This document shows positions 15,661 through 59,682 of a stretch of 64,000 nucleotides of DNA, one piece after another; the first letter of the stretch is position 1; each line of letters starts with the position of its first letter. Source of the DNA: Cymodocea nodosa. Taxonomy: Eukaryota > Streptophyta > Magnoliopsida > Alismatales > Cymodoceaceae. The translations under genes were made by a program, and so were the position numbers. The notes beneath the pieces were generated by a model. The model did no database searches and had not been told where the DNA came from. It saw only the letters and a program-made list of their open reading frames with translations. Where the stretch lies: contig CM072335.1 in NCBI GenBank assembly GCA_036874045.1, forward strand, positions 1,074,001 to 1,138,000. Reading direction: 5' to 3'.

Positions 15661-16250
15661 CTCTAGAGCGTCGAACTAAAACCCTAGAGTTTTCCCAGAT
15701 GTTGCAGAGGTTTTAGTATCGCCGAGGAGGACAACGTCGGGGTTTTTTTTTTGCAGGAAAATGGTACTGTAGATATTTACAGCAAATGGTAAATTTAAAA
15801 TTTATTAATATTAATTTATAAATACATTACAAAAAATGATAATTTATAAATATTTATGTTAAATATAACATTGATGATTATAAATTTTAAATTAATATAT
15901 TTAAACTACAGAACATCAATACCAGCAGCAATGTTAGACTCATTAAGTTAATAAAGTTGGTAAAATAGAAAGAAACTAAAGTAAAATACAGATATTGGCT
16001 AAATAAGACCAGGATTGTACAAAAAATTCAAAATTCGTAAATAATTCGAACTCCATTTCATCTCGATTCGTTCGTAAAATGAATTAAACTTCCATAAAAA
16101 GTATTTATTTATTAAAAATTTGGTTTGATTCAATTAATAAATATTATTTAATTATAATTATATATTATCTTAAAAATATAAAAATAATTATATAAAAACA
16201 CTGGGATATTACCCTGATCCACCGCCCAAATCGCCTCGACCACCACTCCC
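15661..16250. promoter_or_regulatory. Shared divergent promoter region
   Basis: These 590 bp separate the start codons of the minus-strand ankyrin-TPR gene and the plus-strand CFM3 gene, so both promoters must lie here unless leader introns extend further. The middle (15770-16200) is very AT-rich. I cannot assign a TATA box with confidence. Confidence 0.45.
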
Positions 16251-22499: not shown

Positions 22500-23276
22500 A
22501 ATTCAAGTTGATTGTCTTAGTCATTGATGTCCAAAAAAAAAGTAGCTACGAAAATTCAATTTGTAAAGTAGTCAGCTGCACAAGGTAAAAGAGTTTTGCA
22601 TGTAAGAGGGCAAGTGTTCATTCATTCTTTAGATGTGCTTTTCTTGAGATAGCATGATATATTATATCAATGCCTGCTCCGTTTGAGGTGCATCTATTGT
22701 GTTTGTTTATTAGAGTCAAATTCCAAGCCCGGCAACTATGTTCATCAACTGGGCAAGCATTGACCATCTTCGTGGTTACTTTTCTAGTCTCTAAACCCTA
22801 ATAACTTCATTTTCATATTATCTTTTTTATGACCTCGATTTCTAGTGGAAACATGCATATGATAAAAGAATTTTTAAATTTCTGAATTAGAATTTCAAAA
22901 TCCATCAACAGTTAGGGTAGGGTCTATATTTTCCTGAGGTCATCGTCACTAATTAACACACGTCAAAGAACACCTCACATTTTCGTTGATTTAGTCATCC
23001 CCCCATTCATATAGGAGACCATGACATATATGGTACACTCTGGGCTAATGTCAGCCGAGAGACACCCAAGAAAACCCAAAAAAGCAAAGGAAGAAGGGGA
23101 AAAAGAATATAATCCCCAACTATCATAACTGTTTCTTTCTAAAATCAGAGGCTCTTATTCTCTTCCATTCTCCTCCATCCACCCATCCTCATGTTATAAC
23201 TCCTCCTCCACCCTTGCTAAGAATTGCTCTTGTCCTCATTTTGCAAGGCCCTTGGGTCTCTTCATTCTCTCACTGC
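22500..23276. promoter_or_regulatory. CFM3 3' UTR and LRR-extensin promoter
   Basis: Same-strand spacer of about 780 bp. The left part should carry the CFM3 3' UTR. The C/T-rich stretch just before 23277 (about 23155-23215) looks like the leader of the LRR-extensin gene. I recognise no further gene. Confidence 0.4.
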
Positions 23277-26177
23277 ATGGCGTGGTCGAAGTTGACCTCG
23301 CCAACCTTCGGCCACCTTCTCCCTCTTCTCATCTTACTATCTGTCTTTGCCACCACCACCATTGTTGCTCTATCTGATGACGTTGATGTTGCATCAATCA
23401 CTCGTCGCCAGTTGCTCACAATCAAGGAGGGAGGTGATCTACCAGACGATTATGAGTTCAAGGTTAAGATAAATGAGAAGTTCAAAAGTCAGAGGCTACG
23501 CCGTGCTTACATCGCCCTTCAGGCATGGAAGCATGCAATCTTCTCTGACCCCTTCAACTTCACGGTCAACTGGAATGGCCCTGATATCTGCTCTTACAAT
23601 GGTGTGTTCTGTGCCCCAGCGCTTGATGACCCAAAGCTGGACGTGGTTGCCGGCATAGATCTTAATGGTGGCGATATCGCTGGGTACCTGCCTGCAGAGC
23701 TTGGTTTGCTTACGGACATGGCACTCTTCCATGTCAACTCCAATCGTTTCTGCGGCATCATCCCCAAGAGCATGTCAAGGTTGGTGTTGCTGCACGAGTT
23801 TGATGTGAGCAACAATCGCTTTGTTGGATCCTTTCCAGAGGTGGTACTTGAGATGCCCGCACTCAAGTACCTTGATGTACGGTACAACGACTTCGAAGGG
23901 AAGCTACCTCTGGAACTTTTTGAAAAGGATCTCGATGCACTCTTCCTCAACGACAATCGTTTTGTAGGGCACATCCCAGAGAACCTTGGCAACTCCACGG
24001 TGTCTGTCGCGGTACTTGCCAACAATGAGTTCGTCGGCTGCATACCCAGCAGCATCGGTCGAATGGTCGGCACGCTTGACGAGTTCATTTTGTTGAACAA
24101 CAACATCTCTGGTTGCCTCCCCATGGAGACTGGACTGCTGCACGACACGTTGGTGTTTGATGTGAGCTACAATGCTCTCACCGGAGCGTTGCCAAAGGAC
24201 CTCTCCGGGTTGACAAAGATTGAGGAGCTTAATTTGGCACATAATGTACTCACTGGGTTTGTGTCGGAGACCATATGTGAGTTGCCACATCTCACGAACT
24301 TCACATTCTCGTACAATTATTTCAAGGGAGAGGCACCCAAATGCAAGCCATTAGGGATGTCTAGCATTGTGTTGGATGACACGAGCAACTGCCTCCCATT
24401 GAGGCCACGGCAGAAGAGCTTCAAGACATGTCTTCCAGTTATCAGTCACCCTGTCGACTGTACCAAGGCCAGGTGTGGTGGTGGTGGTATTGGTGATCGA
24501 ACACCATCAACACCTTCTTCCCCTGAGTCACCAAGATCACCGACACCGGCGCCAACGCAAACACCAAGTGAACCAAGCCCTCTGTCTCCGGTAGAGGCAC
24601 CAGAACCAACACCAAGTGGAGCAAGTCCTTTGTTACCATTGCGTCCTCCCATTCCACCAATACAGTCACCAACACCGGCGCCAACGCAAACACCAAGTGA
24701 ACCAAGCCCTCTGTCTCCATTGGAGGCACCAACACCAAGTGGAGCAAGTCCTTTGTTACCATTGCGTCCTCCGATTCCACCAATACCAACACCACCGACA
24801 CCGGCGCCAACGCAAACACCAAGTGAACCAAGCCCCCCTCTGTCTCCAGTAGAGGCACCAGAACCAACACCAAGTGGAGCAAGTCCTTTGTTACCATTGC
24901 GTCCTCCCATTCCACCAATACAGTCACCAACACCGGCGCCAACGCAAACACCAAGTGAACCAAGCCCTCTGTCTCCATTGGAGGCACCAACACCAAGTGG
25001 AGCAAGTCCTTTGTTACCATTGCGTCCTCCGATTCCACCAATACCAACACCACCGACACCGGCGCCAACGCAAACACCAAGTGAACCAAGCCCCCCTCTG
25101 TCTCCAGTAGAGGCACCAGAACCAACACCAAGTGGAGCAAGTCCTTTGTTACCATTGCGTCCTCCCATTCCACCAATACAGTCACCAACACCGGCGCCAA
25201 CGCAAACACCAAGTGAACCAAGCCCTCTGTCTCCATTGGAGGCACCAACACCAAGTGGAGCAAGTCCTTTGTTACCATTGCGTCCTCCGATTCCACCAAT
25301 ACCAACACCACCGACACCGGCGCCAACGCAAACACCAAGTGAACCAAGCCCCCCTCTGTCTCCAGTAGAGGCACCAGAACCAACACCAAGTGGAGCAAGT
25401 CCTTTGTTACCATTGCGTCCTCCCATTCCACCAATACAGTCACCAACACCGGCGCCAACGCAAACACCAAGTGAACCAAGCCCTCTGTCTCCATTGGAGG
25501 CACCAACACCAAGTGGAGCAAGTCCTTTGTTACCATTGCGTCCTCCGATTCCACCAATACCAACACCACCGACACCGGCGCCAACGCAAACACCAAGTGA
25601 ACCAAGCCCCCCTCTGTCTCCAGTAGAGACACCAACACCGACACCAAGTGGAGCAAGACCTTTGTTGCCATTGCGTCCTCCAATTCCACCAATGCAGTCA
25701 CCAACACCATCACCAAGCGAGGAAAGTCCAAGGGAGTCATTGCATCCACCACCACCACCTCAAGATGAATCAAGCCCAGTGGCGAAAATGCATTCTCCAC
25801 CTCCACCAACTCCACCCACACAGTCACCACCACCGCCGGTCCAATCACCAACACCTCCACCTACGTATTCCCCGCCTCCGCCAATGCACTCACCACCACC
25901 ACCACCTCCCATCTACTCCCCTCCACCACCACCACCACAAATCTTCTCCGCACCGATGCATTCTCCTCCTCCGCCACCACCACCAATATATTCACCACCG
26001 CCATCCCCTCCTCCCATGATTCACTCTCCACCACCAGTCCATTCCGCACCGCCACCAAGACCATCGGTTCATTCACCACGCCATCCTCCTGCAACCCCAT
26101 CTCCACCCTCCGTCCTCCCTCCAACAACTGGTTTCGACTACTCATCGCCCCCACCACCGGTCTACAAGGGTTACTAA
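23277..26177 (+). CDS. Leucine-rich repeat extensin (pollen LRX/PEX type)
   Basis: Single exon, 966 residues. The ATG at 23277 begins a clear signal peptide (hydrophobic LLPLLILLSVFATTTIVAL, residues 14-32); the frame upstream has no ATG. Residues 35-120 form the LRX N-terminal region. Residues 122-355 hold about ten plant-type LRRs (HVNSNRFCGIIPKSM, FLNDNRFVGHIPENLGNSTV, NNNISGCLPMETGLL, NALTGALPKDL). A Cys-rich hinge (355-400) follows, then a Pro-rich tail (about 410-966). LRX proteins bind RALF peptides through the LRR part and anchor in the cell wall of pollen tubes or root hairs through the Hyp-rich part. The tail has two zones: AP/TP/SP-rich repeats (a 258-bp DNA unit) and a terminal extensin zone with SPPPP and Tyr (IYSPPPPPP, TYSPPPP). 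Long array and single-exon layout fit the pollen (PEX) branch; expression cannot be seen here. Confidence 0.95.
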   Translation: MAWSKLTSPTFGHLLPLLILLSVFATTTIVALSDDVDVASITRRQLLTIKEGGDLPDDYEFKVKINEKFKSQRLRRAYIALQAWKHAIFSDPFNFTVNWNGPDICSYNGVFCAPALDDPKLDVVAGIDLNGGDIAGYLPAELGLLTDMALFHVNSNRFCGIIPKSMSRLVLLHEFDVSNNRFVGSFPEVVLEMPALKYLDVRYNDFEGKLPLELFEKDLDALFLNDNRFVGHIPENLGNSTVSVAVLANNEFVGCIPSSIGRMVGTLDEFILLNNNISGCLPMETGLLHDTLVFDVSYNALTGALPKDLSGLTKIEELNLAHNVLTGFVSETICELPHLTNFTFSYNYFKGEAPKCKPLGMSSIVLDDTSNCLPLRPRQKSFKTCLPVISHPVDCTKARCGGGGIGDRTPSTPSSPESPRSPTPAPTQTPSEPSPLSPVEAPEPTPSGASPLLPLRPPIPPIQSPTPAPTQTPSEPSPLSPLEAPTPSGASPLLPLRPPIPPIPTPPTPAPTQTPSEPSPPLSPVEAPEPTPSGASPLLPLRPPIPPIQSPTPAPTQTPSEPSPLSPLEAPTPSGASPLLPLRPPIPPIPTPPTPAPTQTPSEPSPPLSPVEAPEPTPSGASPLLPLRPPIPPIQSPTPAPTQTPSEPSPLSPLEAPTPSGASPLLPLRPPIPPIPTPPTPAPTQTPSEPSPPLSPVEAPEPTPSGASPLLPLRPPIPPIQSPTPAPTQTPSEPSPLSPLEAPTPSGASPLLPLRPPIPPIPTPPTPAPTQTPSEPSPPLSPVETPTPTPSGARPLLPLRPPIPPMQSPTPSPSEESPRESLHPPPPPQDESSPVAKMHSPPPPTPPTQSPPPPVQSPTPPPTYSPPPPMHSPPPPPPIYSPPPPPPQIFSAPMHSPPPPPPPIYSPPPSPPPMIHSPPPVHSAPPPRPSVHSPRHPPATPSPPSVLPPTTGFDYSSPPPPVYKGY
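24669..25700 (+). repeat. 258-bp coding tandem repeat, four copies
   Basis: Units run 24669-24926, 24927-25184, 25185-25442 and 25443-25700. A half unit precedes at about 24538-24668. The first three look identical by eye; the fourth differs near its end (GAGACACCAACACCGACACC). Each unit encodes 86 residues made of two related halves containing TPAPTQTPSEPSP and GASPLLPLRPPIPPI. The period is a multiple of three, so copy changes keep the frame. Confidence 0.95.
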
Positions 26178-29200: not shown

Positions 29201-30099
29201 GGTGGTCCCTGTGAGCCAGATTATAATAGCTTAAACGAATATAATATGATAATCAAAAGATAGCAGTCGTTTCCTTCTTGCTCGGTCTTCCTTCCGCACC
29301 TTACGATCCACTCGCAGCTGCAGAAAAGCAGCTGATGACATCTATGGTCGTGAATGGGGAGAAGACCGCCACCGCCACCGCCACCAGCAGCACCACCACC
29401 ACCGTCAGGGGGAGCAGCAGCGGCTGAAACATTACTAGGGTGGTTTTGCAACCACTTCTTTTGCAGAGATTTAACTGGCGTGTCACTGTGAATCTCTTTT
29501 TTTTTTTCACCTTTCTTTTTGGGTATTGGCTATCTTGTGGTGTTCGTTGGTTTCTCCTCCCGCACTTATTTGTGTCAATGATTTAGGTACTCTGCTGCTT
29601 CTTTTCTTCTCCTTCTCCCCCTCTTCTTCTTTTTTTTTTCTTTTTCTTTTTGGGTCTCAAATCCTTGTTTTAGTATAGAGTCGTGCGCTTGCAATCTCTA
29701 TTCTACTCATGGGTATTTGCGCGATCGTGAAGATCTTGGCAAAATCTCACATGGTCAATCTTCGTTTCCCATTTCGGTGTTGATTTCTGCGTTGGGTTGC
29801 CAGGGATCTTTCTTCCCAACTGGGCTTTCAATTTTTGATTCATCTGCTTCTTGGTTTTGGTTCTTCTGCTTCACGCTGTTCCAAGCTTCCGACCTATGAT
29901 ATTATTCTTTTCTTGATCTAGAATATGTTGCGAGAGTTCCTTTGAAATCCCAACCTGTTTTCTTCACCCCATGTGTTCTGTTGGTGTCTTCTGATGTCCC
30001 ATACGTTCTAGGCTTGCGCCCAGTTGGGATGCTGCTGGTCCTTGCTTGTTTGTATGTTTGGGATTTTTAGGGTTTTTAGATTCAAGCTTGTTTGTTGAG
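29201..30099 (+). promoter_or_regulatory. WRKY leader region with upstream ORFs
   Basis: A C/T-rich stretch (29590-29650) of the kind found in plant 5' leaders precedes the WRKY start. If this region is transcribed unspliced, it contains upstream ATGs. One opens a 24-codon frame at 29709-29783, and another a 6-codon frame at 29897-29917. A leader intron could remove some of them; I cannot choose the splice sites. Confidence 0.35.
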
Positions 30100-33000
30100 A
30101 TGGAGGAATTAGAGGAAGCCAATAGAGCTGCCGTGGAGTGCTGCTATCGAGTCTTGGGCCTCTTGTCTCACCCCAAAGAACAGCAGAAGTTTGGGAGTCT
30201 AATGGCAGAAACTGGAGAGGCTGTGATTAAATTCAAAAAGGTGGTGTCTCTACTTGGTGGTGGCTTGGGCCATGGTAGGGTCAGAAAGCAGAGAAGAGTC
30301 CCAAATCCATACCATCAGAAGATATTTTTGGAAAGCCCTGTAGCACGTAGAATGGTGCCTTCTGCTTCTTCTTCAGAACCTCTTCAGCTTCTCCCTCCAA
30401 GAAATCTCTTGTTAAATCCAGCGCCAAAGTTGGATTCTGGTACTAGAACTCCCCGTCTGCTCCCACAGAAGATTTTCATGGACAACCCAATGTTGGAAGT
30501 TGAGTCAGGTTCCAGGGGAAACCTCCAACTTCCTTCTCAGCAAACACCATCCACCCACTTCCAGTTCCTCCATCATCAGCAGCAACAGCAGAACAACCAG
30601 AGACTTCTGCTTGAGCAAAAGATGAAGTTCCAAGACATGTACAGAGGGAGCAACAGTGGCATAAACCTCAAATTTGAAAGCTCCAGCTGCACGCCTACCA
30701 TGTCATCGACCAGGTCCTTCTTGTCGTCCCTCAGCATTGATGGGAGTGTTGCTAGCATGGATGGCAAGGCATTCCCCCTAATGGGCATGCCACAGTCATC
30801 AGATAGGACTAATCCACAGTCCTCTTCCAAGAGGAGATGCGCTGGTAGAGGAGAGGATGGGAATGGGAAATGTTCCACCAGTGGGAGATGCCACTGCTCA
30901 AAGAGGAGGTTGGAATTGGATCCCTTTTTTTTCTTCTCGTATTTGTAATACTGTTGTTAAATAAATTATTTTCTAATGGTTGCAGGAAACTAAGAGTGAA
31001 GAGATCCATTAAAGTGCCTGCTATCAGCAACAAGCTTGCTGATATTCCTCCTGATGAGTACTCCTGGAGAAAATATGGACAAAAACCAATCAAAGGTTCT
31101 CCACATCCTAGGTATTACAAAGCATATCACATGCCTTTTATATCTACTTTTACTTTGTTAATTTCATTGAAGTCTGGATGTTGATCTATTTAGTCTTTTT
31201 TCCTTGGTTAGGGACCCAATTTGACTTTGAACTCCTTTCCTTGGTATAGAGTGGAAAATTAAGTGCATTACCCAATGTTTTTCGAGGCCCAATTTTTGTG
31301 GAGAAGAATGTGCTGGCATTGTTGTAGTTGATTCCTTGTTTTGCTTGTGAGTTTTTAGCAATCAATGTCTAAATCCCATTATGTGTGAGAATATTCGCCA
31401 TGCATTCACTACCAAAGTTCCAGCGGGTAGGTTTTGTTGTTGTTGTCACAAATAATTTTTTCACGATCCACTATAGAATCATCATACAAACTTTAAAGCC
31501 TTAAGGGTAACTAAGGGGGCATTCTGCGTTTGGAAATATACTAATATTTTTCAATAATCGTTACCAAATGTATTATTTATATGCCACTTTTAAAAAAAGT
31601 TGTAATTTGAACCAAAAATACTAAATGAAAAAAAGAAGAGTTTTATATTTTTTTGAAATCACCAGCATATTTTCATAACCAATGGACCCTAAGAGTATTT
31701 CTGATAGGCTTGTAAATGGTCATTAGAAATCTAAAATCTGATTTGAATTCAAATTCGTTTAACAGGAAATATCCAAATTCAATGTCCATTGAACCTAACT
31801 TGGATATCAATTTAATATCTGAAAATATTTGAACCAAATTTGGATACATTTGGTACCCATCCGGTCAAAAAACCTAGTTTGTATTCATTTATCTAGTTAT
31901 TTACATTTTTGGTTATATGTATATATATAATTATATATGCTATTTATTTATTATATATTTACATGTGTACTTATGTAAATATTTGATTATTTATATAATT
32001 AATAGATAAAAATAAAATTTTAAAACATTGCTGAATTTGGATTATTTGGATACTGAATGTTTGAATTCAAATTTCTCACAGATTCAACAGATATTATTTG
32101 GATGCTGAATACTGATATTATCGAAATTCAAACAGATTCAACAGATATGAATTTGAATATGCTGAAACTATTTGAATATTGATTGGTCAAATTCAGATAA
32201 TCCAAATATTAATCAGATATGATTTCAAATATTGCTATATTTGGCTTGAATTTTTGAAATTGTCCATGTTGTGCTACAAGATGACAACTCCAATATCCAA
32301 TATCCTTTGTTCTGATATTCAAAACTTCAAAGTGCCTGTTGCTTTGTGGTCAACCTCTTTCATATTAGAGAGGTTTGCAAAATTATCGCCTTTCTTCAAT
32401 AACCAAATTCCATATCTAAATCACCTTTTAATTATTATGTGCATGTGCCATGTGATCAGCGTGATTTGCAAATGTTGTGTGTATCGGACCCAAAAGTTCT
32501 TTAGTTCACAACTTCTTTGTGAGTTTTATAGCTAAGACTACATGAATATATCCACACATGCCATTTTTCATATAGATGGTCATTTATCACACTAAGGAGG
32601 CCATTACACCTAAAATGACACGTTTTTCTTTTGAATAAAAAATTAACAAGAAATAAACTTGTCTCGTTTAATAATATCAGCAAAATGTACATGGAATATT
32701 GTATGTAGATAACACATTTTCTCTTACATTTTTTCTTTATTTAAATTATCTTCCTTATCTCCCATAATTTTCTCCACTTCTATTTGTTCTAATCTCTCTC
32801 TCTCTCGATCTTCTTGTCTTTTTTGCCCATAATTTTAAATGGTTATTGTTAAATTTACATGGGTACATGTGAAAATTTTCAATTAAATGTTGGTCGGCAC
32901 TATTTCTCTCTCTCCTCTTCCCTTTATAATGGTGTAGATAGATATGCATGTAGTTTTCTCCCTTTTACTGTGCTCTTAGTAGTTAACCACCAAATTTCCC

Positions 33001-37549: not shown

Positions 37550-39451
37550 CGGGAATGGTCTGGGATGGTCAGAACTCAGAACAAGAACAGGCCCTGCACG
37601 GAGAGAATCGGGGGTTGGGATCGGAATGGTCGTCGGAGGAGGAGAGGTCGCGGTCGGAATCGATGGAGAGAAGAAGCAGGAAAGACGAGGGGGAAGTATC
37701 GGAGAAACGAGAATTCCAATAGGAGTCTTCGTTTTTTTTTTTTAAATAAAAAATAAAAAGACTTTCAAATACCAATTATTTAATGTGGGAGACTTATTTC
37801 ATCTCGAAAATTTCTTGTCGTTATAAATTTTACAAGAGAAAAAAAATAAATCAACCACGTTACATTTATCTGTCATTAGTAAATTTTATTTTTATTTTTT
37901 TTCGTAAGAACAAAACGTCACACTAACAGATTTGGTGGTGCAATGATTTCACAACTGATTAGAAGATGTTCGGTAATGATTACTTGCTGACAAGCTTCTC
38001 AAGCATTTTTCATATGTTATGTCATTTACATATTTTAGCTTCAACTTGAACTGGCATGCTAAAATTGATGTGATTTATATGATTTGAGTATCATTCTAAT
38101 GGGCCATCATGTCAAACTGAAGGTGGGAGTTGAAGTCCAATTTCTACCCGGCTCACATTGCTCTTTTACGGTGAATTGCCCAACCCCGTTTAGATAATCT
38201 ACCAAGGAATGGAAAAACCAGTCATACCATCCAACGCAGGTTAACCTCTACATACATGTAGTGCTGTTGTTCCTTGGATATCAGGCAAAATAATGTTTCC
38301 AAACCTTTTTCATAAGTTGACTCCCGATTGGCTTATTGAAAATACAATACTACGATTGTATCTTCTTTATCAGTGCTTTTCTAGAATTTTTTATATGATT
38401 ATTACATACAGAACCTCATCCGGACGACGGTAAATCGTTTTACATGGAAGGATACAAAGCAGTTCATTTAAGAGTGAGGCTACAAACATAGAATTTACTC
38501 CGGAAAATATCATTTGATTTAAATGATAATTGTTTGCATCCCCCCCCTCCCCCCCCCTTGCAATGAAACGCGGACTAGCAGTACCGAACAGGTCCACAAA
38601 GAAGGAAACTCAGAGTGGGGTTCTATTCCATTTCGGAATAAATGGGTCCCATGATGTTGTGGAAGTCGGGATAAGTATACTGGATGAAAGTGCCAGGCAT
38701 CTCTTTCATCCTATCAACTTGTCCCAGAGGCCCAAGGACGAAAACACACTTGAGTCGGCTGAAATAATTTTTGTTTGTAGTTCTACATGTGTAACAGCAA
38801 ATTAAAATTCAGGGGTTCAATACCAAGCACATATGACATATCCAATCATCCACTCCTTTAGACCCTCCATTTTTGCTATTTCTCAGCGGTGCCATCAAAG
38901 TGGGAGCTAACCCCATTTTGTCTTCCCCTTTCTGCGCCCTAACATAGACATTGATATGATTCTGTTTTCTGAACATTATTTAGCATTTATTTTTGTCGTA
39001 TAGGATTAAAGATAATGCCTGATGAGTGTTTCTTTTACATTTATTATCTTGTATTGCATTAGATTTATTTATTTATTTATTTATTTTTACCAAAATTCAA
39101 CCAAACGGACTTGAATGCAATCGATCTTGATTAAATATAACGATATATGGGCAATGAAAAACGAGTAAATTTTCTTATATATAGCATGACTTCAAATCGA
39201 GGGCTCATCGTCAGGCTCTCATAATAAATACTTCAGGAACAATGGTGCTCGATGAGATCTAGCATGCGAACCCAGGGAAATCAAGAATCCACACTGAAGT
39301 TTTTTTGCACATCAAGCCACACCAAAGTTATGACTGCAAAGTCAAACTTGAAATTGAACTGGTATAAGGTGTGAACAAAATGTGGGAAGTGCAAGCTTCT
39401 TCCTTCAGCTGAGGACGTCACACAGGCTAGGTAAAGTTAGCGTGGTCTCTC
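37550..39451. other. Intergenic; no gene seen
   Basis: Leader and promoter of the small basic protein on the left, and the 3' flank of LOLITA on the right. A C-rich tract lies at 38540-38557. The short frame at 38530-38805 has no recognisable content. Confidence 0.45.
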
Positions 39452-42400
39452 TTAAGCATCGGTTGGAGGTTTTAACCGAACCAGCCTTCTGATTCTATCC
39501 TTGTCTGTATTCTCCAGCATGCCCTTCAAAATCATATAAACAATATGAGCATAGTTAATTCGATGTAATTGGAAATATAATGGTAATTAGTCAATGAGAA
39601 AAATAGCATCGAATTCCCATTGACATTAGCATGATTCTCGCTTTTAAACCAACAACCTGAGTTTGTGATTGGAAATTTTATTGATTCCCAAATCCTTGGC
39701 AAATGACAAGTCCATATTAGGAGTAACACGACATAATTACTATGTCCCTTATTCCTTTAACGAAACCAATTGTAACATGCAATGCGCATTTGTGTTCAAC
39801 GAGAAGAATTGTGCATTTGTGTTCAACAAGAAGAAATGCACATTCGCATTTAATGAGAAGAAATCCATAAGTGAAGATTAGGAGGTTTTTCCTGACGGCC
39901 TCCTGAATTTAGAGATTCTTCCCACAATACCAATGCCCTTTTTATGGCCTCTTTGAATACATATTCCAACTATCACCATGCAAAACTAGGAAAATCTGTT
40001 GAACATTTGGAAAATTATAAGAAATATCTGTTCAGGATGTCAGTCAGAACCCGTGTTCTGCATGCACGCCAAATCATTGATTGTGTTATTTAGTCAACCA
40101 TCTCCTGTCCCCCCCCCCCCCCAGCCCCTCGACCCCGGCGCGGGGGGGGGGGTTGACTCTGAGACTTCTAGAAGTCAGTCTCTGTTTGTGGAAGTCAGGT
40201 TTAGAAGTTGCTGGGACTACTCCAATGAATCCTTCTTTGGTGAATAAAATGGAGTATTTGGCATCCCAAGCTTCACTCGGATCGTAATAAACTTTCTCGT
40301 TACCATAAAACTTTCTAATTAACACTTGTTGTCTGGTAATTGGTCAGCTCTCACCCACCACCACTAACTATGACAACTATAAATATCCCCTCAACCTTAA
40401 AAGCATCCATTAAAAGAGAGAGAGAAAGGCAATCTCCTGTTGAACAATTACTACCAAAAAAGATCTTAAATGCATACATTACATGAGAGAGAGAGAGGTA
40501 ATCCCTTGCCGAGCAATTATTCCTAGAATCTGATCTTCATTCTCAAATCATTTATTTAACTTGAACATCTAAGTTGACCCCATGCACTGAAGATTGGTCA
40601 ATCATTTTTTAATAAGCTCAGTACTGAACATCAATTTCCTTCTAAGTTGTTCAACATCGCAGCCCCACCTTACACTCAACTCATCAATAGTGCTATTAAC
40701 ATGTTGCCTGTCACTTGAGGCAATACCCAATCCGTAGGTTATGGGTAGATCATTCCTAACTATTGATTCATGTAAGGCACCCCAATCACTTGATTGAACA
40801 CAATCATTTTACATTATAGGACTTTTTTGAGGACATTACTAACATAGTCCCCTTAATGTGGTAGGCACCGCCGGTCTTGTACCTTGAGCCCACTGCGACC
40901 TGGATTGTAACAGTGCCATTGTCACCGAAGAAGACAGTTTCCGAAAAGAATGAGAATTACGGTGGGACACAAACACAAATTATATTACTGCAGAAACACT
41001 TGATAACAAAATGGAAGTTGAGTTCTGGAATAAAGGAAATTGGCAAATCAATAAGAGACATAAGTCTAACAGATCGACCATGCCCCTTCCGATCAAGAGG
41101 TGCTTATTTATGTTACTTAATACTATAATAAACAGCATGTGAGATTCATGTGCCCAATAATTAGACATCCTCAAACAGCAGCTTCTTCATTTTCTGGATC
41201 AATTGTTTCTTCATCTTCCTCCCTAGATGCCTCACCTCCTATGCCTATCGCCTCATTGTTGGTCCCATTTCACTCAGTGTTATGAGTTTGCTTTCTAAAG
41301 TTGTGATGTATTAACTTCTCCCCCTCTCAGAGGAAGCTCGTTCGCTGAAATTCCAGGTGTTTCTTGTTAAATGTATAATAATCCTCCCAGGTAGTTATTT
41401 CCTCACTTCCTCACTGCCTTTGGATGAGCAGTTGACTGACTGCTTGTCCCTTTCTCATGTGGCACTCTTAAGAGTTTCGGAGGTTTCAATTTGGCTCCTT
41501 GAGGGTTAGACTGGTAGATATTTTGCAGTTCTATGAGCTCCATCTAAGGGGCTTCTCCATGATACAGCTTTAGTTGAGACACATGGAAAACTGAGTGAAT
41601 TTAGGCCCCTTCAGGTAACTGCAAGTCATAAGCAATCGCTCCAACCTTGCCTCAGATCTTATATGGTCCATAATATCGAGGTTGGAGTTTTTGGTGTGTC
41701 AATGGCTTGATCGTTATCTACTTGATAGCATGTAACTTAACCTAAACCCAATCCACTATCGACAAGTTGCTTCATGCGGCTCTATGCTTGCACCAGCTAC
41801 TGCTTCAAGTTGCTTAGTATCTTATCTCAATCAATGGCTTGCCATTCCACTTCCACATCCTTGATTGTGCCTGAAACATGAAGAGAGTTGGAGGTGGTGT
41901 CCCATATACAGCTTCAAAGGGGGTCATTCTTGTCATTGAGTGCTGCATAGTATTGTGGCAATACTACACCCAAGTCATTGGCTCGGCATGACAGAAATAC
42001 CTCAAATATATCTCCACCCACTAATTTACCACTTCACTTTGCCAGTTGGTTTCCAAATGATAGGAAGAACTCATCTAGAGTTTGGTGCCCATTTGCACGA
42101 ACAGCTCCTTCTGGAACAAACTAGTAAACATGGTGTCCTGATCACTGACAATTGATAATGGTAAGACATATAGTCTTACGATATGGGTTGAGAACATATA
42201 AGCCACGTACTTGGCAGTGTATAGATGTTTCAGGGTGACAAAATGTGTGCATTTAGTGAGTCTACCACCATTAACATCGAGTATCCTTTGGAAAAGGGTA
42301 GCCAACAAATAAAATCCATAGAGATATCCTTCCACAAAGCACTCAAGATTGACAACAACTACAGGAGACCAACTAGCTTGAGTGTTTCATACTTACATTG

Positions 42401-45400
42401 TTGACAAGTATGACACTCCTTAATGAACTGCTTCACTTCTTTCATCATGTCTCTCCAATAAAAATTCCATTTGAGAGTTGACAATGTGTTCTTAAATCTT
42501 ACATGACCACCAATTCATGAAGTATGTATTTCATCTATAATCTTACCTATCAGTGTTGTCCTACCATGGAAGAATATCCTGCCTTTGTATAGCAGTGTCC
42601 TGTTCCGCATGTTGTATTTTGCCTAATTCAATTGTCCTTCCAGGTATTCTTGCGACCTTATTTGCGGGAATTGATCTTCCACATAATTCAACTTTAACTC
42701 CTCAAACCAGTTGTCTTGAGGACCTAAGATGGCAAATGCTTCGACTCTTCATACCCTCTAGGATAGGGCATCCACAACAGCATTTGACCAACCCTCTTGT
42801 AGGCCCACTTCATCTAAGCTTCATTGTTCAATCATTGGTCCAGTAAATGTTTCAAGCTCTTGTCATCTGTTCAGATGACGAACATCATTCCTACCAAGTA
42901 ATTTTTCCAATTTTTGAATAGCTATAGATAGGGTTTTTAAGTCTTGTTGGTAAGTTGGCAGTTTTTACGTTGTCTATCCTTAAACAAACAACTAAGATAC
43001 GGAATTAGCCTCTTGTTTTGCATCAAAACAACCCTAACTCCCCCTCGACATGCATCACATTCAATTTCGAAGGGTTGATTAAAGTTTGGTAGCATTAACA
43101 ATAGTACACTGCTCATTGCCTTCTCAAGCTTCTCGAAGGTGGATTGCACAGTGTTTGTCCACCAAAACTTGTCCTACTTGATTAGCACCAGGTGCTGCAA
43201 TGATCCCATATTGAGGCATGAATTATCTATAATAGCCAATCAACCCAAGAAAACCCCTTGGTTCCTTGGTGTTGGAAGGTGTCAGCCAATGGGTCATAAT
43301 TTTCACCTTCTCTTGTTCAATTAACACCCTTTCCAACGAAATCAGATGTCCCAAGTAACTAATCTCTGATACACGATACACTGAATTGGCATTTACTCCA
43401 TTTGGCTTGAAGCATGTTGCTTTTCATCAATTCAAGCACCTACTTTATATAGTGGTGATGGGTACTCCAATCCAAGCTATAAATAAGAATATTGTTAAAG
43501 AATACTATTATAAACTTTCTCACACATCCTTTGAAAATGTTGTTCATTAACGACTGAAATGTAGAGGGGACATTTGTGAGCCCAAATGGCATTATGAGGA
43601 ACTCATAGTGGCCATTATGAGTTCAAAATGCAATTTTGTGCACATCATCCACACACATTTGGACCTGATGATACCTTAAGAGCAAATCAAATTTTAAGAA
43701 AGCATGACTACCTTTGAGCTCATCTAAAAGGTCATCAATTAAAAGGATAAGGAACTTGTCCTTGATGGTTTGCCAATTCAATCCTTAATTGTCCACACAC
43801 ATCCTCCATTTTTCGTTCTTCTTGCATACTAATAGTACCAATGCTAAATAAGGGCTAGTGCTACACTATACCAATCCATCTTGCAAAAGTCCTTCCAAGT
43901 AGTCCTCAATCACCTTCTTCTATTGAGGGTAGTATTGATGAGACCGCTAAGCAATTGGTTGGTTGCCTACTTAGATCAAAATTGCATGGTCTTATTCTCT
44001 TGATGAAGGTAATGATTTGAGTGATTGGAAAACTTTCAAATTATCAAGTAAAATTTGTGCAAGATCTTTGGATACTATTCTTTGTATGTTGTCCTATAGG
44101 TCCCCCAATTCATCACTGCTAGATTGCAATAGCTTAACGATAAAGACTTTATTGGCCTTCTACAAGAGCTTGTTGTGCTAACCTTTTGTTCTTGAACTAG
44201 ATAAGCCTTAAATCTCCTTAAGCATATAGCTTTGATTCTAGATTTCAAATTTCATTATCTTTTTGAAAAATTCCATGGGATATTACCCAAGGATTCCAAC
44301 CATTCAACCCCTAATACAGCTCCATACAACTACAAATTCATTACATAAAAGGTGTTTGTCACTATTAAATCAAGCAACTGTAGTTTTAGGGATCGAAATA
44401 CCCCCAAACATTGGGTCATTATTTTACTTGCCACCCATATGGGAAAATCTCCTACCTCCATGGGTTGTTGCATTAGTTTCTAGGAAACATGGAGAGTTAC
44501 AAAATTATGGGTGTGACTCGAGCCTATTAACACCATTATCTCCAAATTTTCAAGCCTCATTGTCTTGGTTGTGATCTTCCCACTTAAAGCGTGGATGGAT
44601 ACTTCCAAGCTAGATGAGTCTCCAATATCTTCATCTAAATCTTCATCATCATCTATTAATTGCAATAGGAAGGCCTCCCCTAGAGGGTACTTGTGGCCCA
44701 TCTCCCATTTTCCATTCTAGTTGAAGTACAACCCTAGTTGTTTCCTTCTCTCATATTCTTCATTAGTAATTCTTCGAACTAAGAACTTCTCTTTGTGATC
44801 CTCCCAGTTAAAGCATAGATGGATACTTCCAAGTTGGATGAGTCTCCAATATCCTCATCTAAATCTTCCTCATCACTGTCTATTAATTGCAATAGGAAGG
44901 CCTCCCCTAGAAGGCACTTGTGGCCCATCTCCCATTTTCCATTACAGTTGAAGCACAACCCTAGTTGTTTCCTTCTCTAATATTCTTCATTAGTAGTTCT
45001 TCTAATTAAGATCTTCCCTTTGTTTTAATTTCTAGGCCATGTACTAATCAATGGAATGTTCTTGTCATCTGTGTTGATGTCTACCTTTCAAAGCTCTTGA
45101 CTTTTCATTGTTTGGAAGGTAGCCATCTCTATGGCTTCCCTTAAATTTTAGGTTCTAAAGGACCTCACCTTGTATTGAAGTTTTCCTTTTAATCCACTTA
45201 GATGCTAAGTTGCTACTCTTTTATCAAGACATCAATCATGTTGCTCAACCTCTCAAATTCCTTACGGTAATTCTCAAGAGTCCCTTTTTGGCATAGCTTC
45301 ACCAAAACTGTCATTGCATCCTTACATTTTGGGCCAAACCCAATTATCAAGTCAATTACCAACTCCACCCAACTTACTTCCTTCTTCTTTATGTGAAACC

Positions 45401-48400
45401 AAAACCACTCTAGAGCAAGACCATCAAAATGATAGGCAATAATGGTTACCTTCTGATCATCAAGAATGTGGTAGAAAGAGAAATACCTTTTGGCTTTGTA
45501 AATCTAAATTTTAGGGTCTTATGTCCCATCAAACTGTGGCATCTTCACAGCAATGAGCTTGAATTGGCAATCATCCATCCCTTGCACTTTGGTTTCTCTC
45601 CCACCTTGTAGTGGACTCAAGGTGCTACCTCTACTCAAGGCAGTCTCCAACATTTGCATTTGCTACCCCACATCCAACAACTCCCCTCCCATATACTATG
45701 ACAGGTCAGATATCTCTTGTCAAATGTTCTAGTTGACATCATCCATCCAAGAGTTAATAGTCTTCATTTTTCCTTCCAAACTCACTTGAAGTTCTCCCAA
45801 GGCCTCTCCAAGTAGACTCTTGAAAACTGCCATTTCCTTGGGCCTCATTTGGGTTTATAGATGAGGTGGCTCTTATACCAAATTGGTAGCCTCTACCAAC
45901 CTTGTACCTTGAGCCCACTATGACTTGGTTTGGACTAGCACCATTGTCTTCAAAGAAGGCAATTCTAGAAGAGAACGAGAATTATGGTGAGACACAAACA
46001 CAAATTATATTACTGCAAAAACACATGATAACAAAATGGAAGTAAAGTTCTAAAATAAAGGAAATTGGCAAATCCGTAAGAAACACAAGTCTAATTGATT
46101 GACCATGCCCCTCCCCAATCAGGAGGTGCTTGTTTATATTATTTAATACTACTAATATAGGGCATGTGAGATTCACATGCCCAATAACTAGACACATCCT
46201 CAGCTGCCAACTTTTTCATTTTCTGAGTCGACCATTTTTTCATCTTCCTCCCTAGATGCCTTGCCTCTTGTGTTTACCACCTCATTGTTAGTCCCATTCC
46301 ACTTGGTGTTAATTGGGTTCTCTTTCTAAAGTTCTAATGTACCATAATGATTTTTAATGTTTTTTAGTTACATTTAGTGACCTTAATGTTAAAATCTTGG
46401 CTATGCTACCACTCATCATGGTCATGAATGATAAAGTATGAATCATATACAACCAATAGATTTAACAATAAATGGGGATTCACATGCATATACAATACAT
46501 CATAAGTAGGAAGATCACAATAATCCAACAAGAAAATGGAGTTGTAGGCACTCATCTTATAATTTAGATATATCAACTCAAAATCTGTTAATGATAAAGA
46601 CTACATCTAAAATAAGCAATTACTTTTTTTTTGTAAACATTTGTTTTACATGCAATATTCACTATTGAAAGATTTTAAGTTAATGTATTTAGATCATTAG
46701 ATAAGCAACTACAAATATTTTAACTATGGATGCCTACAACAATATTAAGCTCATAATCCAATTAGTATGTGTTACTATAGGTCTGACTAAAAAATTAGTC
46801 AACAGCAAATAGTACACAAGTATGGCAACTATTGTACCTTCCAAATAATCTCATCAAGGCTTAGGCATATCCGTCCATATTTGTCAAGAAAGAGACGTTC
46901 AGTTGGAATTTTCCCACAGACATCCTTCACAGATGATGTTATAACAAAGATCACTTCTGCCACTTCATCCAAAAAGATATCAGAAAAAACAAGCATATGG
47001 ATTTGGAACATTTGAGAAATAATGGTGTGATTTCTCACGGAAATAAACGACAACTATTTTGTAATGCTCAACTAACCATAAAAAGGTAAATTTTCTATTG
47101 TAATTCAATAATCACACATGATCAGATCAGAAGAAAGTTAATTAGCTTTAACTTAGATTTTGTGATGCTGCAAGTATTTATGACTATCCTGTGTCTTTCT
47201 TTAAAGTGATTTTCATTCAGCTTGTGAAGTCACAGGTATGACAAACAAACACTTGCAAGTATAGTAATTTGTTAAGAAATGAATTCTAAATGGGTGGTAG
47301 AACACTTAATCGATGCACATTTATAAAAAGATTCATACATGCAAGTTCGTCATACTCGTCCTTGCCAACAACATAAACACTAACATCCCCAAGCATTGTG
47401 TAGACAATATAAACTGACCTGAAATATCAGATTGATTAGTTCATTTATAGCTATAACAGATGATGTGTATCAAAGTAAAGGGAGAAACCACATACTTATG
47501 TGAAGCAACAAAAAGCTCTTCATTTTTTGCACCCTTGAGATTTTCTGCTCCAAGTTTTACTAGGAAAGATCGCCAATGTAGGCGCTCCTCTGCAGGTACT
47601 CCATGGAATCTGCTAAACAAGGACATGGAATGGTGATTTTTTTTATTTGTTAATATAATGCATGCTAGTGTTCATACTATTAAAATAAAGGAGAAAAACT
47701 GTTTCTACCATTTTTCTGTTCCAACTTTACCTGTAATAAGATTTCAAATCCCAAGCTTACCTTTTAAGGAACAAATCTCTAAACTTCTGCACATCAAACC
47801 ACATAGCATGTTGAACTTCCTTCCTTTTATGATCTTTAATGATTATGATTAGTATAAATTTAACATTTTTATGACGATTAAGTTTTCATTTAGTTTCTTG
47901 CAATGACATGAAATCTCTGTTTAATATACTTGGATAATCATAAAATTATGAAATAAATAATTTTTTTGAAGAACCACTTAATGAAATTGTTTTTCTTATG
48001 GTTATAAATTAAAAAATTCATTCACTGGATTAAATACTTGACATGGACATGCCAATGCTAGTGTTATTTATTAATAAATATATGAAATGAAGTTAATCAC
48101 TGAATTTTGATTCAAAGGTAAATGAAGAGACGCATCCAAATTATGCATGTTTTGAATAATTCATGCATGTATTTCACATGGAAAGCACATCCGAATTTGC
48201 AGGATAGAGAATAATTTTAAACAAAATTTATTGATGACATTAGCAAACACTATAATTTTGGAGATAGGTAACCAATTGTATATATACAAAATATTTCACA
48301 AAGAGAAACTACACTATAGATAGAGAGTGGAATTGTTGTCTTAAGCATGGTACATTTCTAATATGATATTTTTAGATTTTATTAAAATAAAAAGTGAAAA

Positions 48401-50606
48401 TTGTTGTTATAGGTACTCACAACATTTTTGTTGTGGGTATCTAATCTAAGCCATTAATCTTTTTCCGGTGACGAAACACACGTTCACTCACTCCCACTCC
48501 CATTCACCATTCGCAAACATCATGAATCGCACAACCTCTCCAATTCACAGACATGTGTTGTCTCATCACTTCCAATCACACCCCTACCTTATACATGAAT
48601 CACACATCTCACCTTGCTAAATAGTATACAAAGATCAAATTCAGTATGCTGTTTTGGACAACCCAAAATAAAAAATTTTATAGGTGCCTACAGCAAAAAT
48701 GACCTTAAATAAAAATGATAATTCTTAAGCAAAGACGATACCAAATAAATGGTCCCAAGTGGTGATTTGTGCCATAGGCTCTCAAATGGGAATTCACTTT
48801 TCCCATATAGTGATTTTGCTTCCATGCACCCCATAAACATTATAAAAAGAGAGATCAACTTTATTGAAGAAGAAAAGAAGGGCCAATAGCTTATGACCTC
48901 CTTCACTATGAGCCATGTATCCCTAATAGCCATCTAGTTTTGACAACGATGGATTCTTCAATCATCATTGAAAATTTGTGTTTTATTATAAAGCAAGTTT
49001 TTCATTCTCTCCTTAAAGCCCACAACAAGTACAAGTAAAGCTCAACAAAGTAGCATGGAGGGAGGGTCAATCAAATAGGGGTGATGAGGGCAAAAGAACT
49101 TTAGATGTAGAATGTCTATATTATGGTCAAATTCCCAAGCTTGGGAGTTAGAGAAAGGCATATCCTTAAAGTAGCCATAATCTTTTCCCCTTTTGTTTCT
49201 TTTTTAAAAGGAAATCCAATGGAACTGCATGAGTTTTGTAGTAAAGAAATTTCAACATGAAATTTGAAATCCAATACTATAGATCAATTTTGGTTTCAAA
49301 GAACAAAGATTCATGCAAGATTTTAATTTATTCCCTCTTCTAGGGAGGTGGAGGCAAGTTGAATGCCTAATGGTTTCATTACTTTGGAAAAACTTACTAG
49401 ATTAGACTCTTCTTGTGTATTTTCCACATCTATTAATTCTAGAGAACCTTGGGAAAACTTACTAGATTATTTCTTCCTTCCATTGAAAATCAAATGACGT
49501 AGAATGTAATGTAGGATATAAAGCATGAGCATATGCAAAAAGTTAATATTGTTGAGATGTATATGCTTAAATGGATGAGTGATGATACTATAAAGGATAA
49601 ACTTAAAAACAATTTTATTGGGAATAAAGTAAGAGTTGCACCTAGTGAAGATAAAAGAAAATCAACTTAGTTAATTTGGTCATATCCTTAGGAAACCAAG
49701 GAACACATCAGTTAAGAGAGAAGAAACAATTAGTGTACAAAAAAAATTAAAAGAAATAGAGGTAAGCCTAAAACTACTTGATTAGGAATTGTAAGAATAG
49801 ATTTAAATTTATATAATCTATGAACCCTTACAACCATGAACTACCCAAGGTGAGCAGGTTGTCTTGAAAAGAAAAATTCAGGAGGCAGGCACATGAAAAA
49901 ATGCCCACCATATAAACATTTAATCCACCATGCTACCCTCATGCTCCAACAGTCCTTAAGCCAACAACAAATGTCTACAAATTTGAGAAAAGGTGTATAG
50001 CAAACAAGACACCCAAGCAAAGTCCCATGATGCCCATGGGAAGACAAGGAGGCAAATCTGCTTGCTCCCTAACACTTAGCCGTGCACTATCAGCCTCACT
50101 ACTAACATTCCCTAGACATCGACTACCATGATGCCCAACCCCATCACAAATTCAGTGGCACACAGGATCTCAGTGGCCACTTGCTTTATGCCCGAATCTC
50201 TATGGCAGAATAGCCATTGATTTGATCTCCACCAGGCATCTGCCCTCTCTCGACTTTCCTCCCTCCTCCAACCATCCCTGAATTCAGATTTGAAGAAGGG
50301 GACGCGCATGTGCTTCGAGGAGTCACGCCAGCCTCCTTCAATGGAGATCGAGACATCGAAAGTTCACTAGCAGATATGGAACTTTCGAAAGGGAATTCGA
50401 AATTTACAGTTCGAATGCAATCTTGATATGGAACTTTCTAGTAAAGACTGAAATTGAACCTAGGAGTAGAGTAGAAAACCAGCTAAATAATCCATCCAGG
50501 CTCCAGCTGAGACCAGATCTGAAGGTTCAAAGGCGGAGGGGATGCAGACGTACCGCTCGACGAGTATATTCCCGTCGTGATTGGAGAACAAAACCGCTAG
50601 CAGCAT
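39452..50606 (-). CDS. LOLITA: LOLITA, longin-like small subunit of the TPLATE/TSET adaptor complex
   Basis: Five exons in transcript order: 50606-50554, 47609-47496, 47418-47339, 46962-46838, 39523-39452. The sum is 444 nt (147 residues); all sites are GT-AG and phases agree. The protein starts [19 protein letters not shown] and continues through [40 protein letters not shown] and [20 protein letters not shown] to LRLKPPT-type C-terminal residues. This is the plant-conserved SNARE-like/longin protein known in Arabidopsis as At1g15370, the sigma/zeta-like subunit of the TPLATE complex. That complex acts with clathrin at the plasma membrane. The last exon ([20 protein letters not shown]) is separated by a 7.3-kb intron holding a Ty3/gypsy element. 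Exon 3 ends CTTGCAT|GTATGA, and only the acceptor GATGAAG|TGGCAG restores the family sequence DELALAEVIF. Confidence 0.9.
39784..39864. repeat. 27-bp tandem repeat, three imperfect copies
   Basis: Units at 39784-39810, 39811-39837 and 39838-39864 share the pattern G.GCATTTGTGTTCAACGAG followed by AAGAA. It lies in the last intron of LOLITA. The period is a multiple of three, but I see no reason to think it is translated. Confidence 0.7.
40091..40158. repeat. C15/G11 inverted repeat (foldback)
   Basis: AGTCAACC (40091-40098) and GGTTGACT (40151-40158) are perfect inverted copies. Between them lie a run of 15 C (40108-40122) and a run of 11 G (40142-40152), which can pair as a hairpin or form i-motif/G-quadruplex structures. 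It lies in the last LOLITA intron. Confidence 0.75.
40859..41313 (-). repeat. 3' LTR of the Ty3/gypsy element
   Basis: About 455 bp, aligned end to end with the copy at 45884-46344 (shared stretches include CACAAACACAAATTATATTA and TCATCTTCCTCCCTAGATGC). Its inner end abuts the polypurine tract. Confidence 0.92.
41315..41328 (-). other. Polypurine tract of the Ty3/gypsy element
   Basis: Minus-strand GAGAGGGGGAGAAG, one base from the inner end of the 3' LTR, as expected for plus-strand priming. Confidence 0.85.
41900..42600 (-). pseudogene. Integrase relic of the Ty3/gypsy element
   Basis: The longest intact piece (42075-42335) reads [20 protein letters not shown] and [20 protein letters not shown]. 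This matches the Ty3/gypsy integrase core (consensus-like SKYAHFIPLKHPYTA and SIVSDRD). It contains the second catalytic Asp in VSDQD. The reading frame is broken on both sides. Confidence 0.85.
42900..43900 (-). pseudogene. Reverse transcriptase/RNase H relic of the Ty3/gypsy element
   Basis: A broken frame encodes [13 protein letters not shown] around 43470-43510, the position of the conserved FFDDILIYS motif. Both catalytic aspartates are changed to asparagine (AAC AAT, complement of 43491-43496). The segment at 42937-43149 ([20 protein letters not shown], then FEIECDA) is the start of the RNase H domain. Numerous stops are present. Confidence 0.85.
44200..45833 (-). pseudogene. Gag relic of the Ty3/gypsy element
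   Basis: The gag start is likely at 45833 ([20 protein letters not shown]). Further on, [20 protein letters not shown] and [11 protein letters not shown] match the plant gypsy capsid region. [14 protein letters not shown] is the nucleocapsid zinc knuckle. Several in-frame stops break it. The zinc-knuckle part is tandemly duplicated. Confidence 0.85.
44571..45020 (-). repeat. 224-bp tandem duplication inside gag
   Basis: The phrase GGATACTTCCAAG followed by GATGAGTCTCCAATAT recurs with a spacing of 224 bp (44597 and 44821). The similarity continues through the zinc knuckle and downstream to about 44795 and 45020. The two copies have diverged at scattered sites. Confidence 0.85.
45868..45880 (-). 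other. Primer binding site (tRNA-Met type)
   Basis: Minus-strand TGGTATAAGAGCC, three bases inside the 5' LTR. It differs by one base from the plant initiator-tRNA-Met primer site TGGTATCAGAGCC. Confidence 0.88.
45884..46344 (-). repeat. 5' LTR of the Ty3/gypsy element
   Basis: About 461 bp; begins TGGTAG and ends GTACCA on the plus strand, followed directly by the target duplication TAATG. Confidence 0.92.
49551..49815 (+). pseudogene. RTE-type LINE 3' end relic
   Basis: The frame from 49551 reads [20 protein letters not shown], then [10 protein letters not shown], and later RGKPKTT with stops between. This follows the C-terminal region of plant RTE-clade LINE polyproteins (MRMLRWM..., VAPIE.K, RGRP..TW). 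Only the last about 265 bp are recognisable. It lies antisense within intron 1 of LOLITA. Confidence 0.75.
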
Positions 50607-58466: not shown

Positions 58467-59682
58467 ATGTCTGCGCCGGAAGATGCGTCTGCCCCAGCGG
58501 AGCCGACCGCCCCTAGCTCCGCCCCGGTGGAGCCTGCAACGGTTGCCCCCGATGAGGAACCTGCTGGTAAAGCAAAGAAGGCTAGGGAGCCAAAGGCGAA
58601 GAAGCCGAAGAAGCCTCGGGCTCCTCCCGCTCACCCTCCCTACCTCGAGGTGTGGTACTCGGCATCTTGATCTGTTTTTCTAGCTTTTCGTTCGTAGCGT
58701 AGTTCTAGTTATGGATATTTCGCGTTCAATCGAAATCGGTGTGTTCGAGCTTGTTGGAACCGTAAATTATGGTGGTTACGTTATACATGGATTCTAAGAA
58801 TTTCTTCCTATTGATGGAGAGGAGCTTTTACAGCTGTCGTTTGCATTGTTTTTAGTGGATTTGCCCTCTTGTTGCATTTGAAACCATACGGAAATCTGAA
58901 ATCCAGCAGTTCGTTGTTCGTTATCCTGCTTGTGCTGAACGAAGCCCTGGATTTCACAATTGTTTCTGATTTGGTTGTGTTTGCCGGTACCACAGATGGT
59001 GACCGAAGCGATCGCAAGTTTGAAGGAGAGGACGGGCTCGAGTCAGTACGCGATCGCGAAGTTTATCGAGGACAAGCACAAGAGCCACCTTCCCCCCAAT
59101 TTCAGGAAGCTTCTTCTTCACCAACTTAAGAAGTTCGTTGCGAGCGGCAAGCTCGTCAAGATAAAGAACTCATACAAGCTCCCGGGCGCCAAACCGAAGC
59201 CCAAAGTGAAGACAACCACCTCTGCCGCCAAGCAAAAGCCGAAGGCTAAGTCTGCCAACGTTTCTACAAAGCCGGCTTCGAAGCCGAAGGCGGCTGCTGC
59301 GGCCAAGCCCAAGCCAAAGCCCAAGCCAAAGCCGGCTGTAAAGACGAAGGCGGTGGCTAAGCCTGCCACCAAGTCGAAGGCCTCTGCAGCGGCCAAACCG
59401 AAACCGGCAGCGAAGCCGAAGGCGGTGGCCAAGCCTGCCAAGCAGGCCAAGGCGGCAGCTCCTGCAGCGGGGAAGAAGAGGAAAGCATCGGTGGCCACTT
59501 CGAAGCCGAAGCCCGCTGCCCGACCTGCCAAGGCGGCAAAGACTTCTTCGAAAGCCTCTCCAGCGAAGAAGACGTCCGCGGCGAAAGTGAAGGCCGCTGC
59601 TGCGAAGAAGCCGAAGAATGTGAAGTCGGTGGCGAAGTCTCCGGCCAAACGAGCTGGTCTGGCTAGGAAAGTTAAGAAATAG
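58467..59682 (+). CDS. H1: Linker histone H1
   Basis: Two exons, 58467-58649 and 58996-59682 (870 nt, 289 residues). The N-tail is Ala/Pro/Glu-rich, then Lys-rich (KAKKPKKPR). The globular winged-helix domain spans about residues 53-125 (PPYLEMVTEAIASLKERTGS, SQYAIAKFIEDKHKSHLPPN, FRKLLLHQLKKFVASGKLVK). The C-tail is a long Lys/Ala/Pro repeat region (PKPKPKPKP, AKPAKQAKAAA). The intron falls between Glu61 and Met62, inside the globular domain, as in many plant H1 genes. The protein binds linker DNA at the nucleosome dyad. Length and composition are usual for plant H1. Confidence 0.97.

Follow-up and report, generated by a model that had tools for sequence, protein, structure and literature searches.

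How can a plant gene go on reaching its final exon when the intron in front of that exon holds an entire retrotransposon, and what has become of the element since it arrived? We addressed this question in a stretch of 64000 bases (the window; zero N) from Cymodocea nodosa contig CM072335.1, positions 1,074,001 to 1,138,000, which is plant-like by gene content. A long terminal repeat (LTR) retrotransposon of 5486 nt lies within the window at 40859-46344 on the minus strand, inside the last intron of a gene that looks like LOLITA, the small subunit of the TPLATE complex. The explanation that we favor as a whole, with a probability of about 0.7, is that a single insertion placed a Ty3/gypsy LTR retrotransposon, in the sense direction, in the final intron of the LOLITA-like gene, where it would since have decayed under heterochromatic methylation, while RNA polymerase II would still transcribe across it, the 7.3-kb intron would be spliced out, and the protein would be unchanged. 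As the last step, a pathway resembling IBM2/EDM2 may protect the gene against polyadenylation (poly(A)) within the intron.

The element is flanked by a target-site duplication (TSD), TAATG, with its left copy at 40854..40858 and its right copy at 46345..46349; the odds that just these two positions would share 5 bp by chance are 1 in 1024. Its termini read TGGTA...TACCA. Repeat analysis and LTR alignment placed the LTR that is downstream in the sense of the gene (3' LTR, ~455 nt) at 40859..41313 and the upstream one (5' LTR, 461 nt) at 45884..46344, both on the minus strand, and the direct repeats (repeat families D1, D3, D5, and D6) are collinear at a spacing of ~5.03 kb. At its inner end, the 3' LTR shows TA where TG is expected; its last base was placed by eye, and the alignment and the context and site counts given below used 40859-41312, one base shorter. 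A motif scan identified a primer binding site (PBS) of tRNA-Met type, TGGTATAAGAGCC (45868..45880, minus strand), which starts 3 nt inside from the 5' LTR and has one mismatch to the tRNA-Met-type motif. The scan (≤2 mismatches) returned three matches in the window, compared with a mean of 1.16 in shuffled sequences, 10 of 100 of which reached three; TGGTATAAGAGCC is the best of these three matches and the sole one at an LTR edge. A polypurine tract (PPT) found by eye at 41315..41328, with 14/14 purines on the minus strand, adjoins the 3' LTR. Because the PBS sits at the right LTR and the purine run at the left LTR, the 5' LTR must be the right-hand one, and the reading direction of the element is that of the minus strand. 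The 5' LTR also contains a TATA-like TATAAA starting at 46138.

The TSD and the paired LTRs show a single insertion event. A sequence-only reading of this stretch had reported the TAATG duplication, TG...CA LTR ends, PBS, and PPT, and we located all of them, with coordinates that proved exact to the base. Its claim of one ancient insertion rather than assembly noise is likewise borne out by the TSD and the paired, collinear LTRs, together with the divergence described below, and its claim that element and gene are co-oriented agrees with the GT/AG junctions of the host gene, which also lies on the minus strand. Using blastn at E 0.01, we found no match of the element to the rest of the 64-kb window, and in the window no Rfam family reached its gathering score and no tRNA gene was present.

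The evidence for past heterochromatin comes from differences between the two LTRs. Published work is cited here by PubMed Central accession. LTRs are identical at insertion (PMC2996936), so the differences between this pair arose afterwards. In the alignment, 368 of 454 columns are identical (81.1%), with 69 transitions, 17 transversions, and a Kimura two-parameter (K2P) distance of 0.228. The transition/transversion ratio is thus 4.1, compared with 2.8 in transposable elements (TEs) and 1.9 in introns plus untranslated regions of wheat, where this way of reading methylated-cytosine decay is established (PMC2996936). Counting both LTR copies and leaving out one edge transition without context, we found that C or G positions face T or A at 12/24 positions in CG context, 16/44 in CHG, and 40/288 in CHH (H being A, C, or T), and both of the first two contexts differ from CHH (Fisher p = 8e-5 for CG and p = 8e-4 for CHG). 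At the level of whole sites, none of 11 CG sites and only 2 of 18 CHG sites are kept in both LTRs, whereas 17 of 39 GC/GHC control sites are (p = 9e-4); gap-spanning sites were left out, and the count was the same under three alignment settings. This CG/CHG-biased decay is very probably the signature of methylated cytosines lost under long heterochromatic methylation, and we infer that the element was once methylated in both CG and CHG contexts. Decay at CHG sites indicates heterochromatin and not the CG-only methylation of gene bodies. The same distinction is stated in work on Arabidopsis intragenic TEs (PMC4417168).

The ratio of observed to expected CpG (CpG o/e) is 0.22 in the element and 0.60 in the rest of the window. 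Across 39001-46500, in 500-bp bins, it drops from 0.71 close to the last exon (39.0 kb) to 0.05-0.06 towards the 5' end of the element (45.0-46.0 kb), with small reversals. Two intron stretches are nearly free of CpG, namely 46350-46837, from exon 4 to the right TSD copy (0 in 488 nt), and 49001-50000 (1 in 1000 nt).

The two LTRs differ in how much they have lost. Three CpGs are present in the 5' LTR and nine in the 3' LTR. If every change is taken to be C to T or G to A, the 5' LTR has 22 CG/CHG losses by base and the 3' LTR has 6 (p = 0.004), with CHH losses at 18:22; counted by site, the losses number 16 and 4 (p = 0.012), with GC/GHC control sites at 7:6. The asymmetry is significant against CHH (p = 0.007) but not against the GC/GHC controls (p = 0.14), in a post hoc test at one locus. 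It is unlikely, in our view, that the two LTRs preserve a history of polar heterochromatin in a transcribed intron, in which the promoter-bearing 5' LTR would have been hit ~4 times as often as the 3' LTR. More generally, because paired intragenic LTRs are identical at insertion, their differences could log the strength of methylation at each end, and an LTR decay count over all sense and antisense intronic LTR elements would provide a sequence-only test of polar heterochromatin tied to the avoidance of early poly(A).

The LTR divergence supports a very old insertion. A K2P of 0.228 corresponds to 8.8 My at a rate of 1.3e-8 and to 17.6-114 My at slower rates. At the wheat TE rate of 1.67e-8 (PMC2996936), it corresponds to 6.8 My. 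Methylated sites mutate faster, and we offer no date for the insertion.

The sequence-only reading had also called the element complete, which holds for its structure but not for its coding capacity: the longest stop-free pieces inside it measure 103 aa (coding, minus strand) and 110 aa (plus strand). The domain search covered pieces between stops only, 16 different ones, of which 5 gave a retroelement match. Based on Pfam, the minus strand carries a gag piece at 45216..45503 (Retrotrans_gag, PF03732, E 1.6e-5), a reverse transcriptase (RT) piece at 43443..43622 (RVT_1, PF00078, E 3.4e-7), an RNase H piece at 42940..43173 (RT_RNaseH_2, PF17919, E 1.1e-12), an integrase zinc-binding piece at 42362..42514 (Integrase_H2C2, PF17921, E 2e-12), and an integrase C-terminal piece at 41655..41717 (SH3_Tf2-1, PF24626, E 3.7e-4) that scores 21 bits against a Pfam cut-off of 30. 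By eye, we also recognized remains of an integrase core in two frames at 42233..42386 (minus strand); one piece weakly matches Ty3 Gag-Pol (E 0.39), and the stretch gave no Pfam match to the integrase core. The RT piece resembles solved retroelement reverse transcriptases, Ty3 included, and aligned to PDB chain 4ol8_A (Reverse transcriptase/ribonuclease H) with E 9.7e-8. A scan of viral contigs with the same piece found no relative. The domain order on the minus strand, 5' to 3', is gag, RT, RNase H, integrase zinc domain, and the sub-threshold SH3-like end of integrase. Ty3/gypsy elements have RT-RNase H upstream of integrase, and copia elements have the reverse order. Since RT lies ahead of integrase here, the element belongs to Ty3/gypsy and, judged from these remains, is a coding-dead fossil of that group. 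A 27-aa piece at 41330-41410 (minus strand) has the look of a chromodomain end, with no Pfam match. A chromodomain following integrase would mark the chromovirus branch of Ty3/gypsy; because it is suggested here by eye only, we claim no lineage for the element.

On the gag side, an internal tandem duplication (44569..45023, minus strand), identified by repeat analysis and alignment, consists of two copies of ~227 nt that are identical at 209/228 positions (K2P 0.089). This divergence is 0.39 times that of the LTRs (p = 2e-4), so the duplication is most likely younger than the insertion.

The host gene comprises five coding exons on the minus strand, which we placed by eye at GT/AG junctions: the coding part of exon 1 (50554..50606, with the ATG at 50606), exon 2 (47496..47609), exon 3 (47339..47418), exon 4 (46838..46962), and exon 5 (39452..39523), which holds the final 23 codons and the stop. 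Together they form an intact frame of 147 aa. In this exon model the last intron, intron 4, spans 39524..46837 on the minus strand (7314 nt, GTACAA...GAAG); the element accounts for 75% of it, and the remainder is 1818 nt. Use of the last exon means that the intron with the element must be transcribed and spliced, and we infer that both continue through the element. Readthrough from exon 4 into intron 4 adds VQ and then a stop; if protection failed, the product of a transcript polyadenylated within the intron after exon 4 would finish with VQ and be missing the final 23 residues, among them the end of the small-adaptin domain.

Pfam identified Clat_adaptor_s (PF01217) across residues 1-138 of the host protein (E 7.9e-6). 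Solved structures of zeta-COP (best E 5.4e-4) and AP-4 sigma (E 0.35) matched only distantly, and the protein is probably neither of the two. A scan of viral contigs with the host protein found no relative. LOLITA is a small-adaptin/longin-type protein of ~150 aa, distinct from zeta-COP and AP sigma, which fits the 147-aa product, and the gene looks like a plant endocytosis gene of small-adaptin type that is best read as LOLITA. The sequence-only reading had placed the element in an essential-type gene of a complex whose members are required for fertility in Arabidopsis; the literature that we found describes the TPLATE complex as essential and the eh1-1 mutant as male sterile, and did not extend this to LOLITA itself (PMC8691179, PMC13176895, PMC10431929, PMC7615741). 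A literature search found no publication joining LOLITA, TPLATE, and a retrotransposon.

The sequence-only reading had further proposed that poly(A) signals in the LTRs, being in sense with the gene, could end its transcripts early. Hexamers were counted on both strands and compared with 200 dinucleotide shuffles, using AATAAA/ATTAAA and a wider set of 11 hexamers. The canonical hexamers number zero in the 3' LTR and one in the 5' LTR. In the whole element they number four in sense (8.3 expected) and eight in antisense (6.1 expected), and the remaining 1818 nt of intron 4 contain five. With no excess over shuffles, we rejected canonical poly(A) hexamers as a special hazard of the element, and the proposal was not supported in that form. 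The LTRs show a mild excess for the 11-hexamer set (6 versus 2.9 expected and 5 versus 2.3; 16 and 10 of the 200 shuffles were at least as high), whereas the whole element has 34 with 39.5 expected; the LTRs may therefore carry a weaker, plant-type poly(A) signal.

Other explanations of the locus bear on different steps of this account. That the feature is an artefact of assembly, or two repeats paired by chance, can practically be dismissed, as the TSD, the collinear LTRs, the PBS and PPT at their correct edges, and the coding order are all concordant, and LTRs that are 19% diverged do not represent a duplicated assembly copy. The element might instead supply regulation, its sense LTR offering a promoter or poly(A) sites that yield stable alternative LOLITA isoforms with a role of their own. 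Such a role would be in line with the TATA-like sequence of the 5' LTR and with the mild excess of the 11-hexamer set, and genes with TE-dependent isoforms are known in Arabidopsis (PMC10241880); however, the 3' LTR has no canonical hexamer, the element has no excess of them, and the shortened product would stop two codons past exon 4 and lose 23 residues, which makes this explanation very improbable. A less remote alternative, which we still consider somewhat unlikely, is that the element is now inert intron filler, not heterochromatic, and that its removal would leave LOLITA transcripts unchanged. The 19% divergence of the LTRs, the broken frames, and the scarcity of canonical poly(A) hexamers are consistent with inert filler, whereas the CG/CHG decay points to long-lasting methylation, and in Arabidopsis the genes with transcription defects are those with longer and more methylated TEs (PMC4417168), the element here being 5.5 kb. 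This alternative overlaps with the favored explanation, denying only its last step, and the probabilities that we attach to the readings are not meant to sum to 1.

Several points weigh against decay as methylated heterochromatin with protected read-through. The LTR footprint tells the history of the element and not its present chromatin state. Intron 1 (0.30) and the part of intron 4 beyond the element (0.37) have a low CpG o/e too, and CpG depletion by itself therefore does not set the element apart. The exon edges of the host gene were set by eye, and the name LOLITA rests on domain, size, and the exclusion of zeta and sigma rather than on a match to a named LOLITA record. In rice, heterochromatic introns lie preferentially near promoters, whereas the element here is in the last intron, and 980/1,967 TE-containing introns (about half) do not overlap heterochromatic introns, a figure that also speaks for inert filler (PMC7145194). 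Intragenic TEs of Arabidopsis are less methylated than intergenic ones, only ~17% of them are ≥1 kb, and Gypsy elements are underrepresented in genes (1.7% versus 17% intergenic; PMC4417168), so a 5.5-kb, near full-length intronic Gypsy element would be atypical there.

Elsewhere in the window, Pfam identified pieces of an Rpc25/S1-type gene (3900-4565, minus strand), a CRM-domain (CRS1_YhbY) gene (16218-18229, plus strand), a WRKY gene with the plant zinc cluster (29995-31181, plus strand), and a linker histone H1 gene (58939-59679, plus strand). A tandem array of a 258-bp unit (24530-25708; 4.6 copies, 98% match) sits in a 1042-aa open frame with leucine-rich repeats (LRRs) at 23049-26174 on the plus strand, which we take from its look to be an LRR-extensin.

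Compared with the plant LTR elements surveyed in PMC6317226, the element is conventional in its 5-bp TSD (found in 93.4%), its tRNA-Met PBS (the commonest type, at 39%), its gag-RT-RNase H-integrase order, and its 5.5-kb length (within 4.4 to 24.1 kbp). It differs from plant Ty3/gypsy elements in being degenerate and in carrying a tandem duplication of ~227 bp that most likely postdates the insertion. The intronic element of Arabidopsis RPP7 is a Copia element, whereas the one here is Ty3/gypsy. Like RPP7 and PPD7 (AT3G05410), two genes with long heterochromatic intronic TEs under IBM2/EDM2, the host gene contains an intragenic retrotransposon of ~5 kb with an exon beyond it that must be reached, and the element here bears mutational signs of past CG and CHG methylation (PMC4417168, PMC10241880). 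AT3G05410 contains a LINE, in contrast to the Ty3/gypsy element here, which lies in the last intron of a TPLATE-type gene. In Arabidopsis, constraint is not relaxed in genes that carry TEs within them (PMC4417168). The element has very probably been methylated heterochromatin of the sort targeted by IBM2(ASI1)-EDM2. This pathway acts on methylated intronic heterochromatin in Arabidopsis (PMC4417168, PMC10241880), in which IBM2 and EDM2 likely suppress the use of proximal poly(A) sites (PMC10241880), and OsIBM2 acts on heterochromatic introns of a group of genes in rice, where >10% of genes carry such introns (PMC7145194). The locus shares a long TE-bearing intron with those rice genes and differs from them in position, last intron versus enrichment near promoters; the same study reports no TE family with a significant orientation bias in introns (p > 0.01), so a sense orientation would be unremarkable there (PMC7145194). 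As a single case, the locus is one more plant gene with an intronic retrotransposon, an arrangement of which plants have already provided other examples. A regulatory role for an IBM2/EDM2-like pathway at this locus is plausible but generic, carried over from those systems; what the locus adds to them is the evidence, read from the decay of its LTRs, that points to past heterochromatin.

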